A stretch of 38,651 nucleotides of DNA from a virus: positions 1-38,651 of the IMG/VR virus record IMGVR_UViG_3300044858_003573, one strand, 5' to 3'. A program made the translations under genes and the position numbers. The first letter of the stretch is position 1. Each line of letters starts with the position of its first letter. The notes beneath the pieces are model-generated. The model searched no databases. It saw only the letters and a list, made by a program, of their open reading frames with translations, and had not been told where the DNA came from. Shown here in pieces: positions 1-38,651 of this stretch.

Positions 1-12
1 GGTCGAAACGAT
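1..12. repeat. 12-bp terminal direct repeat, left copy
   Basis: The bases GGTCGAAACGAT open the window and recur as its last 12 bases. This means the molecule is circular or carries filled-in cohesive ends. The position just upstream of the terminase small subunit is where lambda-type phages have cos, and lambda's own overhang is 12 nt. An assembler overlap of a circular contig would look the same, so the physical end type is not proven. Confidence 0.7.
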
Positions 13-26469: not shown

Positions 26470-26954
26470 GCGCGCTGCTCTCCATCATGTCGCCCCGGGT
26501 CTGGATCGCCGTCGCCCTGGCGATCGCGCTGGCTGCCAGCCACTGGAAAGCCTACACCGGCGGCAAGCAAGCCATACAGCTGGAGTGGGACGCCGCCACC
26601 GCCCAGGCCACCGCCGCCGCGCTGGCAGCCGAGCAAGCCGCACGCGCCAAGGAGCAAGCCCTGCAAACCCAAGTCCGAAAGGTCGCCCATGACTACCAGG
26701 TCGAGAAAACTCGCCGCGTTGCTGCTGATCAGCTTGCTGCTGACAGCCTGCGCCAGCTCAAGGCCGCCCTCGCCGGTGGTGGTCAGCCCGCCGCAAATTC
26801 CGCCGCCCCCTCCGGAGCTGATGACGACCCCAGAGACCGAATTATTGCCGAATGTGCCGGAGCTCTTATCCAAATGGACAAAGCAGCTCGAGGCCTGGCA
26901 GACCAGACGCGCGGTTTGCAAAGCTACGCCGCAGGCGTGTGTGTAGCGCCCTAG
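26466..26954 (+). CDS. Rz: Rz-like inner-membrane spanin
   Basis: A 162-aa i-spanin started at GTG 26466 in the endolysin stop overlap. A single N-terminal membrane anchor (WIAVALAIALAASHW) is followed by an alanine-rich coiled coil (AATAQATAAALAAEQAARAKEQ...). Rz pairs with the nested Rz1 lipoprotein to fuse inner and outer membranes at the last step of lysis. Its stop TAG lies in CTAG, shared with the integrase stop on the other strand. Confidence 0.9.
   Translation: MSALLSIMSPRVWIAVALAIALAASHWKAYTGGKQAIQLEWDAATAQATAAALAAEQAARAKEQALQTQVRKVAHDYQVEKTRRVAADQLAADSLRQLKAALAGGGQPAANSAAPSGADDDPRDRIIAECAGALIQMDKAARGLADQTRGLQSYAAGVCVAP
26689..26946 (+). CDS. Rz1: Rz1-like outer-membrane spanin lipoprotein, nested in Rz
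   Basis: An 85-aa o-spanin in the +1 frame entirely inside Rz. A basic N-terminus, hydrophobic stretch and lipobox LTAC place the lipidated cysteine at C21. The mature part is proline-rich (SPPQIPPPPPEL), as in lambda Rz1. It would sit in the outer membrane and contact the Rz C-terminus. Fully embedded Rz1 genes are known in lambda. Confidence 0.92.
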   Translation: MTTRSRKLAALLLISLLLTACASSRPPSPVVVSPPQIPPPPPELMTTPETELLPNVPELLSKWTKQLEAWQTRRAVCKATPQACV

Positions 26955-27919
26955 ATCCGCGCGGAGATCTCTGCGGCTGATTCGCGGTAATAGACCCGCT
27001 GCAGCATCCGCAAGTCCGAGTGCTGGCTGATGCGGGCCAGCGTCATCACATCGACCCGCCTGGCCAACCAGGTCAGCGCGGTGGCCCTGCCGTCGTGAAA
27101 CCGCAGATCCCCGGCCAGCGTGGCGTCTCGCGCGGCCCGAAAGCCCACATCGAGGTCGGCCGGCGTAATCGTGAAGTCCGCCAGCAGGCAGTGCCTGACG
27201 GCCCGGCGCGGCACCGGGATCTCCGAGCGTAGCTTGCCCTTGGCCTTCACCGCGATCACCCGCGTGGCCCGGTCGAAGGTGGTTGGGCCCACCCGCAGGC
27301 ACTCCGACGCCCGCAGGCTGGTGGACAGGGTGACCAGGAAGGCCAGCGCGATCTGCTGGTTGACCGTACTGGGCTTGCGGCCGGTCACATACCCCAGATG
27401 GCGCAGCACCCGGCGGATCGCCTGCCAGGTCCACCGCTGGTGGCGCGGCTCGGCATCCTCGGGCAGCCTGACCCCCTTGAACGGGTGATGGTCGGCCCAT
27501 TTCCATTCATGGCGGGCGACCGTGAACACATTGCGCAGCAGGTTCGACTCGCGCAGCACCGTCGAGCCGGCCACCGCCCGCCGACCATCCCCGCCCGCCA
27601 GCCGGGCATCCCGCCAGGCCGCGATCTGCGGCGCCTGAATGTCGGCCAGCCGCATCTCCCCGAAGTGCTGCACCATCGCAGCCAAGCGCAGCTGCTCCCA
27701 CTTGGCGCCGTCTTTCTTGGTGGACACCTCCAGGCTGTACTTTTCGGCCGCCTGGGCAAAGGTGCGCCCACCTGGTGCAGCCTGCGTGCGTAGTTCCTGC
27801 TGGCGGCGGGCTCCCCACTGCTGGGCCTCTCGTTTGGTCTGGAAGGTCTGGCTGTCGCGCTGGCCCTTGACGTACACCTGGCAGCGGTATCCGTCACCGT
27901 AAGGCGTGATCGATGGCAT
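26951..27919 (-). CDS. int: Tyrosine-recombinase integrase
   Basis: A 322-aa site-specific recombinase. Catalytic residues are recognisable: R203 (SLRASE), a lysine in AKGKL (K227/K229), H275 and R278 (HDGRAT), H300 (ISQHSD), and the nucleophile Y310 or Y311 (QRVYYRES). The N-terminal 60 residues form an arm-binding-type domain (PYGDGYRCQVYVKGQRD), and a SAM-like core-binding domain spans about 50-150. The start at 27919 has AGGGA upstream and excludes an open but unsupported extension to 28006. It integrates phage DNA at attP/attB, converges with Rz, and their stops overlap within CTAG. Confidence 0.95.
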   Translation of the reverse strand: MPSITPYGDGYRCQVYVKGQRDSQTFQTKREAQQWGARRQQELRTQAAPGGRTFAQAAEKYSLEVSTKKDGAKWEQLRLAAMVQHFGEMRLADIQAPQIAAWRDARLAGGDGRRAVAGSTVLRESNLLRNVFTVARHEWKWADHHPFKGVRLPEDAEPRHQRWTWQAIRRVLRHLGYVTGRKPSTVNQQIALAFLVTLSTSLRASECLRVGPTTFDRATRVIAVKAKGKLRSEIPVPRRAVRHCLLADFTITPADLDVGFRAARDATLAGDLRFHDGRATALTWLARRVDVMTLARISQHSDLRMLQRVYYRESAAEISARI

Positions 27920-28136
27920 GGGGAGATCCCTGCGGAGGTTTTGGGGAGTTCTGACGGCGGATTCCGGCGCTCCAGAGGGAAAAGCGCGGAACCATGATAC
28001 TGCCACCGTCCCCCTGAATTTCCGGGGTTTTCCCTCTGGCGGGGAAAATCTAGGCGTGTTTTGAGGGTGCCGACTGGTGCCCGGGGCCGGAATCTGGCCT
28101 ATAGCTACGGGCCACTTTTGGGGAATTTATGCGGAG
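27920..28136. other. Intergenic region between int and xis candidate, attP candidate
   Basis: 217 bp without a gene. It contains a 12-bp inverted repeat (CCAGAGGGAAAA at 27972-27983, TTTTCCCTCTGG at 28028-28039), a third GGGAAAA at 28042-28048, and two direct copies each of TTTTGGGGA (27939, 28116) and TGCGGAG (27931, 28130). It also holds a degenerate copy of the head-gene repeat motif (TGCCACCGTCCCCCTGAATT, 28001-28020). Because int's 3' end abuts Rz, this is the only space next to int that could hold arm-type and core att sites. Confidence 0.45.
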
Positions 28137-34676: not shown

Positions 34677-34842
34677 TCCGTGAGCAGATTGCAGTTGCCG
34701 GCAGAGTTGACACGCGTGGCCGGCGGCTCTTTCCACCCCCCTGGCGTGCTGAGCGCTGGCGTGCCCCGAATGATTTGTCTCCTCTCGAAGGCTCGAAAGG
34801 CCTGGGGTCGCCGGGTGGGTTTTTTCTTTGGTGATGTATCGC
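34677..34842 (+). promoter_or_regulatory. Intergenic region with weak terminator
   Basis: 166 bp separate the Cro-like gene from the next regulator. CCTGG-GGTCG-CCGGG at 34801-34815 followed by TGGG and six T (34820-34825) is a plausible but weak intrinsic terminator (5-6 bp stem with a G-T pair), like lambda tR1 between cro and cII. The T-run is followed by TTTGGTGATG, the ribosome region for the next gene. Confidence 0.5.
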
Positions 34843-35271
34843 ATGCAAAAATTTTGCACCGCGATGCCTCACAACCGCTCTCAACAAAGTTGTGAGGCAG
34901 CCTTGAATCAGATTGCAATCCCGATCGAGATCAGCCCCGCCGAGGTGGCGCGCAAGCCGACGATGGGCTCGGCGATCGCACTGTGCGCCGAACTGGCCGG
35001 CCTGGAGCCCAAGCAGATCCAGGGCAAGCTGGCCATGGACAAGGGCCAGTGGAGCCGCTGGGAAAACGGCAGCGAGGGCGTGATCTGGCCCAAGCTGTCC
35101 GCACTGATGGACTTCTGCGGCAACGACGCGCCGGTGCACTGGATGCTGCACCAGCGTGGCTATGACCTGCACTCCATCCGCAAGCTGGAAAGCGAGACCG
35201 AGCGGGACAACCGCCGGTTGCGCGAAGAGAACGCGGCGCTTCGCCGGGTGCTGATGGCGGGAGCAAAATGA
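34843..35271 (+). CDS. Predicted DNA-binding regulator, replication/cII position
   Basis: A 142-aa protein. A core with EISPAEVARKPTMGSAIALC and then DKGQWSRWENGSEGVIWPKLSAL forms an HTH-like DNA-binding region. A C-terminal coiled coil (ESETERDNRRLREENAALRR) would mediate oligomerisation. Its place between Cro-like and primase genes fits lambda cII or O; a similar protein is common in Burkholderiales prophages. Several starts are open: TTG 34828, ATG 34834, ATG 34843 (GGTGA 8 nt upstream) and ATG 34864 (no ribosome site). I chose 34843. A 10-bp inverted repeat follows the start. Confidence 0.7.
   Translation: MQKFCTAMPHNRSQQSCEAALNQIAIPIEISPAEVARKPTMGSAIALCAELAGLEPKQIQGKLAMDKGQWSRWENGSEGVIWPKLSALMDFCGNDAPVHWMLHQRGYDLHSIRKLESETERDNRRLREENAALRRVLMAGAK
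34844..34858. repeat. 15-bp palindrome TGCAAAAATTTTGCA
   Basis: TGCAAAA-A-TTTTGCA is a perfect palindrome of 7-bp arms overlapping the candidate start of the regulator gene. It could be an operator for that regulator or for a host factor. It is AT-rich against the background. Confidence 0.65.
34866..34898 (+). repeat. 10-bp inverted repeat at the 5' end of the regulator gene
   Basis: GCCTCACAAC (34866-34875) and GTTGTGAGGC (34889-34898) are perfect 10-bp inverse complements around a 13-nt loop. It lies within the first codons of the regulator, so it could fold in mRNA and control translation, or bind a dimeric protein in DNA. Confidence 0.7.
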
Positions 35272-36347
35272 CACAGGCCACCCTCGACCGCCCGCCCATC
35301 GACATGCGCCAGGCCGAGGCCATGCTGCAGTTCATCGACGGTGCCGAGGACCGCGAGACCTGGGTGGCCGTGGGCATGGCGCTCAAGGCTGAGTTCGGCG
35401 ATGCCGCTTGGGGTGCCTGGGAGCAGTGGAGCCAGCAGGCGGCCAACTACAGCGCCCCGGCCTGCCGCAGCAGCTGGCGCGGTTTCAAGTCTCGCGCTGG
35501 CGGGTACACCATCGGCACCATCATCAAGCTGGCCAAGGACGGCGGCTACAGGTTCGAGCCCGGCGAGCGTCCGGCTGCTGCTGACCTGGCACGCCGCAGG
35601 GCCGAGCGTGAGTCCCGGGCCGCGGCGGATGCCAGGGCCCGTGCCGATCTGGCCGCCAATGCCGAGGAGCGCGCCCTGGCTGACTGGCGGTCCGCGCTGC
35701 GTGAGGGCGAGAGCGCCTACGCCAAGCGCAAGGGCATCGACAAGCCAGAGAGCTGCCGCTTTCTGCCCTCTCAGCAGGGCGGCGGCCTGGTGCTGCCGAT
35801 GTTGCGTTACGACCTGCCGCGCGAGCAGTCGCTCAAGGGCGTGCAGATCATCCGCGATGACGGCAGCAAGAAGTTTACCTACGGCATGCAAAAGCCCGGC
35901 ACGGCCTGCCGCCTGGGCCTGCCGGTGATCGGCGAGCCGGTGTTTGTGTGCGAGGGCTACGCCACGGGCATGAGTATCCGCATGGCGCTGGAGCGCCGAT
36001 ACCCGGTGTACGTGGCCTGGGACGCCTACAACCTGCCCGTAGTCGTCGAGTCGGTCTACAGCATGCTGCCAGGCTGCCCGATCGTGATCTGCGCTGATGA
36101 CGACTGGCGCACAGCCATCAAGGGCATTGCCAACAACGTGGGCCGCATCCAGGCCCAGGTGGCCATGGACGGCGTGATGGACGCTGGAGCCCGCCTGGTG
36201 GTGCGCTCCTTCCCCATTTTTGCCGCCCATCGTGGCGACAAGGACACCGATTTCAACGACCTGCACCGCCTGGAGGGCCTGCCCCAGGTCCGCGCCCAGC
36301 TCGATGTGGCGCTCGATGTGCTGCAACAGATCCAGAAATATGGCTGA
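35268..36347 (+). CDS. Replication primase with PriCT-2 and TOPRIM domains
   Basis: A 359-aa protein. Residues about 13-95 form a PriCT-2-type primase C-terminal domain (AEAMLQFIDGAEDRETWVAVGMAL; SWRGFKS). A charged helical linker (residues 100-145) follows. The TOPRIM part carries VFVCEGYATGMSI (E229), VICADDDW (D277-D279) and DTDFNDLHRL. The order matches P4-alpha-like primases without zinc ribbon. It makes primers with the helicase encoded next. Its ATG overlaps the previous stop and its end overlaps the helicase by 8 nt. Confidence 0.9.
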   Translation: MTQATLDRPPIDMRQAEAMLQFIDGAEDRETWVAVGMALKAEFGDAAWGAWEQWSQQAANYSAPACRSSWRGFKSRAGGYTIGTIIKLAKDGGYRFEPGERPAAADLARRRAERESRAAADARARADLAANAEERALADWRSALREGESAYAKRKGIDKPESCRFLPSQQGGGLVLPMLRYDLPREQSLKGVQIIRDDGSKKFTYGMQKPGTACRLGLPVIGEPVFVCEGYATGMSIRMALERRYPVYVAWDAYNLPVVVESVYSMLPGCPIVICADDDWRTAIKGIANNVGRIQAQVAMDGVMDAGARLVVRSFPIFAAHRGDKDTDFNDLHRLEGLPQVRAQLDVALDVLQQIQKYG

Positions 36348-37722
36348 TCAATCCAACAGCGCCAAGGTCTACCAGATGAGTCAACCCCCCGACATGGAAG
36401 ATGAGGACGCGCCCGCAGCACGCAAAGGGGAGGGGGGCGCACCTCGGGCACCTGTCAAGCGCGAGAAGCGCAAGAAGAAGGTCGACACCGGCAAGCTAAA
36501 CACGCTGTTCCGCAACTGGGCGCTGCAGTACTGTAGCCAGATCGCCTGGGACGTGGAGACACGCCAAGCCTACAGCGTGGCCGGCCTGCGCAACCAGTTC
36601 GGTAATGACGAGGTGCGCATGTGGATGACCAGCGACAAGCGCCGCGTGGTGCATGCCGACCAGGTCGTGTTCGATCCCAGCATGAAGTGCGGCCCGGCCT
36701 GCATCAATCTGTTCGGCGGCCTGGAGACAGTACCTGTGCCGGGCGACTGCGAGCCGATCCTGGACCTGTTGCGCCACCTCTGCGGCGACTCGGACATCGT
36801 CTACGAGTGGGTGCTGGACTGGATCGCCTATCCGCTGCAGAACCTGGGTGCCAAGATGCCCACCAGCATCATCATGCACGGCGATGAAGGGTCGGGCAAG
36901 AACCTGCTATGGGAGATCGTGCGCGACATCTACGGCTCCTACGGCTCCGTGGTGGGCCAGGACCAGCTGGAGGACAAGTTCAACGACTGGATCAGCCACC
37001 AGCTGTTCGTCATCGGCGACGAGGTGCTATCGCGCACTGAAATGCGCCACCTCAAGGGCAAGCTCAAGGCGATGATCTCCGGCCGCGAGATCAAGATCAA
37101 CACCAAGATGATGCCGGTGCGCTCTGAAGAAAACCACGTCAACCTGGTGTTTCTGTCCAACGAGCTGCAGCCCAATGCCCTGGACGCCTCGGACCGTCGC
37201 TATTGCGTGATCTGGACACCACCGAAGGCCGAGGCGGAGTTTTACCAGCGTGTGGTGCAGTGCAGGGACAACGGCGGCCGGGAAGCGTTCCTGCACTTCC
37301 TGATGAACCGAGGCTTGACGCTGTTCAAACCCTACGCCCCACCCCCGGCCACCAAAGCCAAGCACGACCTGATAGACCTTGGACGCCCCAACCCTGAGCG
37401 GTGGTGGCTCGCTTGGAGCAAGGAAGAGCTGCCGGTGACGTACAGCAGCTGTAGCGCCGACCAGGCCTACAGGCTATACCGACGATGGTGCGTGATCGAG
37501 GGCGAGAAGTTCCCCATGAGCAAGGCCGTGTTTGGCCGCATGGTAATGCGCTTGGCGGGCGACCAAGTGGCGGTGCGGGTGGTGACGCCAAAGAGCCTGC
37601 GCGTGTCTACCCGCATGTGGTGGGTGACCCCGCCCCCCGATCAGAGTGAAACCGGCCTTTATGCGCAGGACGCAATCGATTTGTTCGAGGCCAATCTGAA
37701 GGGCTACATCGGTGAAAACTGA
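36340..37722 (+). CDS. Superfamily 3-type replicative helicase (DUF5906 family)
   Basis: A 460-aa protein with Walker A GDEGSGKN (181-188), Walker B FVIGDEV (223-229) and a sensor/motif C segment with NLVFLSNE. A basic Lys/Arg N-terminus (VKREKRKKKVD, 39-49) precedes the ATPase. The C-terminal region (YRLYRRWCVIEGEKFPMSK) is the usual winged-helix-like DNA-binding tail of DUF5906 helicases. It would load at the iteron region immediately downstream and act with the upstream TOPRIM primase. Confidence 0.92.
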   Translation: MADQSNSAKVYQMSQPPDMEDEDAPAARKGEGGAPRAPVKREKRKKKVDTGKLNTLFRNWALQYCSQIAWDVETRQAYSVAGLRNQFGNDEVRMWMTSDKRRVVHADQVVFDPSMKCGPACINLFGGLETVPVPGDCEPILDLLRHLCGDSDIVYEWVLDWIAYPLQNLGAKMPTSIIMHGDEGSGKNLLWEIVRDIYGSYGSVVGQDQLEDKFNDWISHQLFVIGDEVLSRTEMRHLKGKLKAMISGREIKINTKMMPVRSEENHVNLVFLSNELQPNALDASDRRYCVIWTPPKAEAEFYQRVVQCRDNGGREAFLHFLMNRGLTLFKPYAPPPATKAKHDLIDLGRPNPERWWLAWSKEELPVTYSSCSADQAYRLYRRWCVIEGEKFPMSKAVFGRMVMRLAGDQVAVRVVTPKSLRVSTRMWWVTPPPDQSETGLYAQDAIDLFEANLKGYIGEN

Positions 37723-37980
37723 CACCTTCCCAGTTCTATCAATTACGGATGCATCCGTAATTTTTGGGGTATCCGTAAACAGCCGTAACCCGCATAAACA
37801 GGGCCTCTCTACGGCATTACGGATGAGACCCTCATTTGTCCCATGTGTGTGTGCGCGTGTGCGCGCACTCGCACGATCTACCCGTAAATGCCGTAATGCC
37901 GTAGAGAGCCTTATTCCATGCGGGTTTGGCAGTTACGGATGCGGGAATCTATCCGTAATCATCCGTAATGGGGGTGTCTG
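37723..37980. other. Candidate origin of replication with iterons and long dyad
   Basis: 258 bp with no gene. Seven exact copies of ATCCGTAA or its complement lie at 37743, 37753, 37771, 37817, 37933, 37951 and 37961, plus GCCGTAA-type variants at 37782, 37881, 37890 and 37897. 37741-37762 is a perfect 22-bp palindrome. CTCTCTACGGCATTACGG (37805-37822) is an 18-bp inverted repeat of 37891-37908, extended by AACCCGCAT/ATGCGGGTT. Its loop holds 27 nt of alternating purine-pyrimidine. Location after primase-helicase fits the origin. Confidence 0.75.
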
Positions 37981-38583
37981 ATGCAGATCAACGTCACAAC
38001 CAACTTTCCCGACATCGCCAAGCGCCTGGATACCCTGGCCGCCGATGTCCGCATCAAGGCCCTGACCTCGGCCATGAACAAGACCATGGCGCAGGCCAAA
38101 ACACGCATGGGCAGGGAGATCACCAAGGAGTTCAACGTCACGGCAGCGTATGTGCGCGAGCGTCTCCAGGTGCGCCGTGCATCGTTTCGCAATGGGCAAT
38201 TCAACCTGCAGGCTTCGCTGACTGGTGGCGATGGGCGCAAGCGCAGTGCCAACGTGATCCGCTTCCTTGAGCGATCCGTCAGCCTGGCCCAGGCTCGCAA
38301 GCGAGCCAGCACAGGTACGCTCAAGCAGCTGCGGTTCAAGATCCGCAGGACTGGCGGGCAGCGCACGATCCCTGGCGCCTTCATCGGCAACAAGGGGCGC
38401 ACAGTCTTCCGTCGCACCACCGACAAGCGTTTGCCTATCAAGGCGATCAGCACGGTGGACGTGGCGCAGATGTTCAACGCCAAGCGCATCAACGCCAAGG
38501 TCGTGGCCTCGATCCGTGAAAACTTCGCCCGGCTGTTCGAGTCCGAGGCGCGCTTCTTCGTCGCGAGGTTCAACCGTGCCTGA
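37981..38583 (+). CDS. Minor tail protein Z-like (gpZ family), displaced
   Basis: A 200-aa protein. It opens MQINVTTNFPDIAKRLDTLA and continues AADVRIKALTSAMNKTMAQAKTRMGREITKEFNV, the pattern of the prophage gpZ family. The middle carries YVRERLQVRRASFRNGQF and the C-terminus SIRENFARLFESEARFFVARF. In lambda gpZ lies between FII and U and completes the tail for joining. Here it lies next to the genome ends and after the replication genes. GGGGG precedes its ATG. Confidence 0.85.
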   Translation: MQINVTTNFPDIAKRLDTLAADVRIKALTSAMNKTMAQAKTRMGREITKEFNVTAAYVRERLQVRRASFRNGQFNLQASLTGGDGRKRSANVIRFLERSVSLAQARKRASTGTLKQLRFKIRRTGGQRTIPGAFIGNKGRTVFRRTTDKRLPIKAISTVDVAQMFNAKRINAKVVASIRENFARLFESEARFFVARFNRA

Positions 38584-38639: not shown

Positions 38640-38651
38640 GGTCGAAACGAT
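38640..38651. repeat. 12-bp terminal direct repeat, right copy
   Basis: Copy of bases 1-12. Together they mark closure of the genome; the unique length would be 38639 bp if the repeat is an overlap. A circular assembly overlap or cohesive ends both explain it. Confidence 0.7.

Follow-up and report, generated by a model that had tools for sequence, protein, structure and literature searches.

The window analysed here, a virus record of 38,651 bases taken at its full length, contains a gap of 258 bases (37723-37980) that lies directly 3' of an SF3/D5-type helicase gene and has a neck/minor-tail gene as its right-hand neighbour. The question raised by this locus is what function a short stretch of repeats and symmetrical elements at such a place could serve. 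An earlier note on this DNA had proposed a replication origin at which the SF3 helicase is loaded, and the comparison with relatives described below strongly supports this proposal, so far as sequence can indicate it. We consider it very likely that the gap is the origin of replication of the phage. The features of the gap and of the genes associated with it are listed in the table.

Table. Positions of the putative origin, its elements and the associated replication genes in the window
Feature	Position	Strand	Remarks
Putative replication origin	37723..37980	.	Whole gap, from helicase stop to next gene; 54 non-redundant relatives with alike architecture
Outer left iteron ATCCGTAA, first half of the 22-bp palindrome	37743..37750	-	Exact copy
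Iteron ATCCGTAA, second palindrome half	37753..37760	+	Exact copy
Iteron ATCCGTAA	37771..37778	+	Exact copy
Iteron AGCCGTAA, one mismatch	37781..37788	+	
Inner left iteron	37817..37824	-	Degenerate neighbour CTACGGC at 37809-37815
Inner right iteron ACCCGTAA, one mismatch	37880..37887	+	
Outer right iteron	37933..37940	-	Exact copy
Outer right iteron	37951..37958	+	Exact copy
Outer right iteron	37961..37968	+	Exact copy
Left arm of interrupted dyad	37787..37822	+	Element 2 (AACCCGCAT) and inner left iterons
Right arm of interrupted dyad	37891..37926	-	Inner right iterons and element 2 (CATGCGGGTT)
Alternating purine-pyrimidine, Z-prone tract	37842..37868	.	27 nt, at centre of symmetry
SF3/D5-type hexameric helicase (DUF5906), proposed initiator	36340..37722	+	Pfam PF19263, E 5.8e-19
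PriCT_2 and Toprim primase	35268..36347	+	Separate gene just upstream of helicase; Pfam PF08707, PF13362
Helicase C-terminal winged-helix domain, proposed iteron reader	37381..37719	+	AlphaFold pLDDT 93.5; H-H-H-E-E-H

The main sequence features that had been noticed previously were found again in the present analysis. Seven exact copies of ATCCGTAA are present, all inside 226 bases (37743-37968), compared with 0.16 copies expected from shuffling, and two further copies with one mismatch start at 37781 and 37880. Additional degenerate sites, CCGTAA at 37783, 37882 and 37891, were absent from the earlier note, and the degenerate copies TGCCGTAA and TGCCGTAG lie within 37889-37905, after the inner right iteron. 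The perfect palindrome at 37741-37762 is, with 22 bp, the longest in the window, the runners-up being of 14 bp. The 36-nt interrupted dyad was also confirmed, as the top-scoring inverted repeat of the window (within 250 bp), but its arms were counted here to pair at 29 of 36 positions (81%), rather than at 27 as given before. The alternating tract with Z-DNA potential, which has a GC content of 67%, is the longest in the 38.6 kb, where the next longest is 13 nt, and the longest tract in any of 30 whole-window shuffles was 21 nt. An Rfam scan of the gap region matched no RNA family, and the GC skew of the window had only a weak minimum near 32 kb, which counts against an origin at the gap.

For the comparison with relatives, homologous helicases were gathered from viral contigs, genomes and phage records, resulting in a set of 54 non-redundant gaps behind such helicases. 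In close relatives, the gap behind the helicase is nearly the same in length and layout, with a repeated word that is specific to the lineage: ATCCGTAA, ATCCGTTACC, GCCGTAAC, GCCGTCACC, GCCGCTACC, ATCGGAACA and ATCCGTGG were found in close lineages, and GCGTAACC, CCATCACA, ACCCTCAACA and ACCCAACACA, among others, in more distant relatives. The iteron copies within a genome thus appear to have changed in concert, as expected if one protein reads them. The gap comes after the helicase irrespective of the downstream gene, the neck gene being found in only 8 relatives, and a primase homologue was found in 46. The iterons nearest to the centre are in opposite orientation in 48 of 53 gaps, and in all 25 loci tested the left side of the gap recurs inverted on the right, with scores above every shuffle and arms of up to 71 nt and more. 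This left-right symmetry derives mainly from the iterons and a second recurrent element, AACCCGCATG. The latter, in the form AACCCGCATG(G/A)AT, is present in most relatives and, in the window, at 37787-37796 and 37917-37926; it lies about 50-65 nt left of the tract, is often mirrored on the right and occurs in either orientation, independently of the iteron type. A hairpin was considered as its explanation and set aside.

The central alternating tract exceeded all others in the remaining locus in 50 of the 54 cases, and was significant (p<=0.05) in 50 of 54; it was without significance in L036, L093 and L097. Its length is mostly 12-39 nt across relatives, and in distant relatives an A/T-rich stretch is additionally present between the tract and the right-hand iterons. 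Moraxella phage Mcat1 (2863-3190) has a similar layout of CCCTGCACA iterons with an A/T-rich spacer and without an alternating tract, and a small Roseomonas plasmid (3201-3775) has a DUF5906 helicase followed by ACCCTGGACA arrays, again without such a tract. The tract, therefore, characterizes a large group of these origins but is not essential to the architecture in general. Furthermore, in lytic phages with more distant DUF5906 helicases (L103-L105), the helicase gene is not followed by a large gap, and the signature is thus not universal in the family.

The mirrored layout had also led to the suggestion of a cruciform loading site, at which the helicase is loaded upon extrusion of either the dyad arms or the 22-bp palindrome. 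The dyad is real and is the best one in the window, and interrupted dyads recur in relatives. However, a loop of 68 nt would separate the two 36-nt arms, and a loop of this size makes their extrusion costly. The symmetry, moreover, belongs to binding sites, because the mirrored parts in relatives consist of the iterons and one other element, and masking the iterons drops the dyad mostly to background in relatives. Divergence of the arms without compensation, which the earlier note had named as refuting its proposal, was indeed observed: in the alignment, L006 pairs at 31 of 31 positions where its close relative L003 pairs at 28 of 31, leaving three unpaired arm changes and no compensating one. 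In addition, element 2 is inverted in L019, L047, L056 and L058, and only four close loci (the window, L015, L002 and L016) have the abutting perfect palindrome. The dyad is, as judged from these sequences, better explained as paired binding sites than as cruciform arms, and we regard a cruciform loading site as very improbable.

It was also considered that the gap could itself be a small gene, with the origin embedded in the coding sequence as in lambda gene O, since a frame at 37712-37981 has a GTG start that overlaps the helicase end and shares a TGATG with the following gene. All nine near-clade gaps have one forward frame open throughout, compared with 1.5 expected, the ends of this frame overlap the neighbouring genes or come close to them, and gp2 of phage S1 is annotated at this place. 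However, the differences between the window and L015 are distributed evenly over the codon positions (30/31/32), the frame relative to the tract varies between subclades, it is not open in most of the distant relatives, and it has no Pfam match. A small gene at this place is, in our estimation, unlikely, and the open frame likely does not encode a conserved protein but serves as a translational bridge, by which expression of the downstream genes is maintained past the origin.

To characterize the candidate initiator, the start of the helicase was placed at MADQSNSAK on the basis of the alignment. The protein also matched phrog_2249 and others annotated as DNA primase, and its predicted fold was closest to that of the C-terminal region (CTR) of NrS-1 (Z 26.8), followed by the SaPI5 primase-helicase (Z 18.1) and by AAV Rep and papilloma E1 (Z about 13), with D5 also matched. 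The Walker A motif, G181-x-x-x-x-G186-K187, is invariant in 42 helicase sequences, in agreement with the assignment to the SF3/D5 type, and a primase-helicase fusion is present in some relatives. For the C-terminal domain, the closest solved folds were the RFX winged helix (Z 6.9) and the origin-binding domain of P4 (1ka8), the match to which, with a Z of 6.7 over 78 residues, is modest (under 8) and level with those to other winged helices. A Foldseek search with the C-terminal domain alone gave no significant match.

Iteron similarity was correlated with similarity of the C-terminal domain when the helicase core was controlled for (partial Mantel r 0.288, p 0.001), whereas it was not correlated with the helicase core when the C-terminal domain was controlled for (r -0.034). 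Within clades, a motif-free measure gave an r of 0.285 (p 0.001) for the helix-turn-helix residues 375-409, these p values being approximate, because pairwise tests on related sequences overstate significance, and their direction being consistent. In both analyses, the segment that scored highest for co-divergence with the iterons was residues 375-399, which in the model span helix 2, the turn and the first part of the putative recognition helix. It is thus the C-terminal winged helix of the helicase, and not the motor, that appears to track the divergence of the iterons, and we hold it to be highly probable that the origin is read by this domain.

These results also bear on the possibility that the gap is no origin and serves as an operator region for the helix-turn-helix (HTH) protein encoded at 34828, or for another phage regulator. 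The iterons are operator-like in size and the HTH gene lies 2.5 kb upstream, and the earlier note had named this regulator (there placed at 34843) as a candidate for binding the iterons. However, homologues of the HTH gene are present in only 2 loci, compared with 46 for the primase, although the gap is universal, which speaks against the regulator as the iteron binder. Furthermore, neither promoters nor terminators were found in the gap 37723-37980, so that a promoter-like site is missing, and the identity of the iterons tracks the C-terminal domain of the helicase. An operator without an origin is therefore given hardly any chance.

We then turn to the base composition of the central tract. 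The pyrimidine-purine steps in the tracts are 38.5% CG, 54.8% CA/TG and 6.7% TA, compared with 24.6%, 53.9% and 21.5%, respectively, outside the tract in the same gaps, and the tract is GC-richer than the remainder of its own gap in 46 of 51 cases, on average by 18 points. This CG-rich, TA-poor bias fits the pattern expected for Z-DNA and would be opposite to that expected for easy melting. Z formation was predicted by a simple single-site model with published dinucleotide energies (PMC3024258), in which the domain size, the stiffness constant and the junction twist were assumed values. In this model, the tract was the best predicted Z-forming segment of the window, with a critical superhelix density of about -0.041, and was the best of its locus in 41 of 52 cases. 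The tract of the window is thus an alternating sequence with CG/CA steps for which a flip at physiological supercoiling is predicted.

It may be possible, with a chance approaching even, that the origin is the same but the central tract provides flexibility or spacing, or keeps host proteins away, without ever adopting Z-DNA. The Z-form is a prediction, relatives without a tract exist, as described above for Mcat1 and the Roseomonas plasmid, and some tracts are just 12-14 nt long. On the other hand, flexibility or easy melting would favour TA steps, which are depleted threefold with CG enriched, and the tract is mostly GC-richer than the rest of its gap. That Z-DNA actually forms at the tract and matters for its function, as the model would suggest, is a possibility that we take seriously but to which we give somewhat less than an even chance. 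Similarly tentative is the wider proposal that these loci represent a widespread class of phage origins, in which a Z-forming tract between opposed helicase-loading arrays replaces the AT-rich unwinding element as the unwinding or topological trigger and the iteron code has been repeatedly rewritten together with the helix-turn-helix, giving many mutually orthogonal replicons. Literature searches on Z-DNA with iterons and origins found no paper, and the conserved Z-prone centre appears to be new to the literature, within the papers searchable.

The features computed here, which are the conserved position, the symmetry, the lineage-specific exchange of iterons, their co-divergence with the helix-turn-helix and the base-step bias of the Z-prone tract, suggest a mechanism for the origin, in which we infer binding, ring loading, bidirectionality and any actual Z-DNA. 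The SF3 helicase encoded upstream would recognize the iterons via the winged helix at its C-terminus. Since the inner iteron arrays face each other in inverted orientation across the central tract, a helicase ring would be loaded on either side of it, the two rings pointing in opposite directions, and the DNA between them could be opened to give two forks that proceed bidirectionally, with the neighbouring primase priming both. The central CG/CA/TG tract may act as a topological element, adopting the Z-form or B-Z junctions under negative supercoiling, and could take up or relieve supercoiling and thereby nucleate or stabilize melting.

With respect to the genome that would be replicated in this manner, a 12-nt sequence, GGTCGAAACGAT, was observed at both ends of the window (1-12 and 38640-38651), at the end of the identical contig L001 and once, internally, in L015 (5389). 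It looks like a cos overhang of 12 nt, as used in lambda-like packaging, and the left end carries packaging genes of the lambda-like kind. Such cos-like ends would indicate that the record is a complete linear genome, in which the origin lies under 1 kb from the right end. A tyrosine-type phage integrase (Pfam Phage_integrase) is encoded at 26951-28006 on the minus strand, and given this integrase, the phage is probably temperate.

This locus could be of use beyond the phage itself. A role of Z-DNA in replication initiation has hitherto been hard to pin down, and dozens of natural origins in which a Z-prone tract has stayed in position, with its surroundings rewritten, make it testable on a small plasmid. 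The pairs of iterons and helicases represent a natural series of matched codes, for studying DNA reading by winged helices and for orthogonal replicons, and the simple signature could help in locating origins in unannotated phages.

Regarding known systems, the best reading is that the phage pair may work, in principle, like an initiator-origin pair of the SaPI or P4 type. As in the Rep-ori pair of SaPI, the pathogenicity islands of Staphylococcus, a hexameric SF3-like helicase (fold match to 7ola/7om0) carries a C-terminal DNA-binding domain, which is here a winged helix predicted from the fold only, and the origin, in which numerous short iterons form two sets, immediately follows the helicase gene. 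SaPI origins have an AT-rich region between the iteron sets, whereas the phage centre is a GC-rich Z-prone tract. The Toprim primase is a separate gene in the phage but a fused primase domain in SaPI, and the phage origin resides in a tailed-phage genome, SaPI being a satellite. The alpha protein of satellite phage P4 may be similar in being a helicase with a C-terminal winged-helix origin-binding domain, the second-best fold for the domain studied here. P4 alpha is a single fused primase-helicase, whereas the phage has two separate genes, and the position of the origin differs from that in the ori-crr system of P4 as well. A lambda O-type origin differs in that the phage gap lies outside the initiator gene and that the bridging frame is without a coding signature.

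For both SaPI Rep and SCCmec Cch2, binding via the C-terminal domain to iterons that immediately follow the respective gene has been reported, with SaPI Rep binding as two hexamers (PMC7581432). Cch2 is likewise a D5-family helicase whose direct repeats just downstream of the gene are bound via that domain (PMC7581432), but these are only three 5-nt repeats, and neither a symmetric two-array layout nor an alternating tract has been described for them. The nearest solved structure of the helicase, the C-terminal region of the NrS-1 primase-polymerase (6k9c), is different in being fused to PrimPol, and the 8-nt recognition sequence of NrS-1 PrimPol is present only twice in the NrS-1 genome (PMC7102993). 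In the RepA-ori module of PLE, satellites of Vibrio cholerae, the DNA-binding domain of the initiator and the iterons covary and have been exchanged as a module, for which an origin-directed nuclease has been held partly responsible (PMC8263062), although RepA is a RepA_N initiator without helicase activity. By analogy, we speculate that the iterons could have been rewritten repeatedly under a pressure such as an origin-directed nuclease, or through incompatibility of co-infecting phages. Since the phage pair has neither an AT-rich region at the centre nor a fused primase, we do not class it as SaPI-type or P4-type, and the conservation of its Z-prone centre, together with iterons that have been rewritten repeatedly along with the helix-turn-helix, leads us to regard it as a distinct variant.
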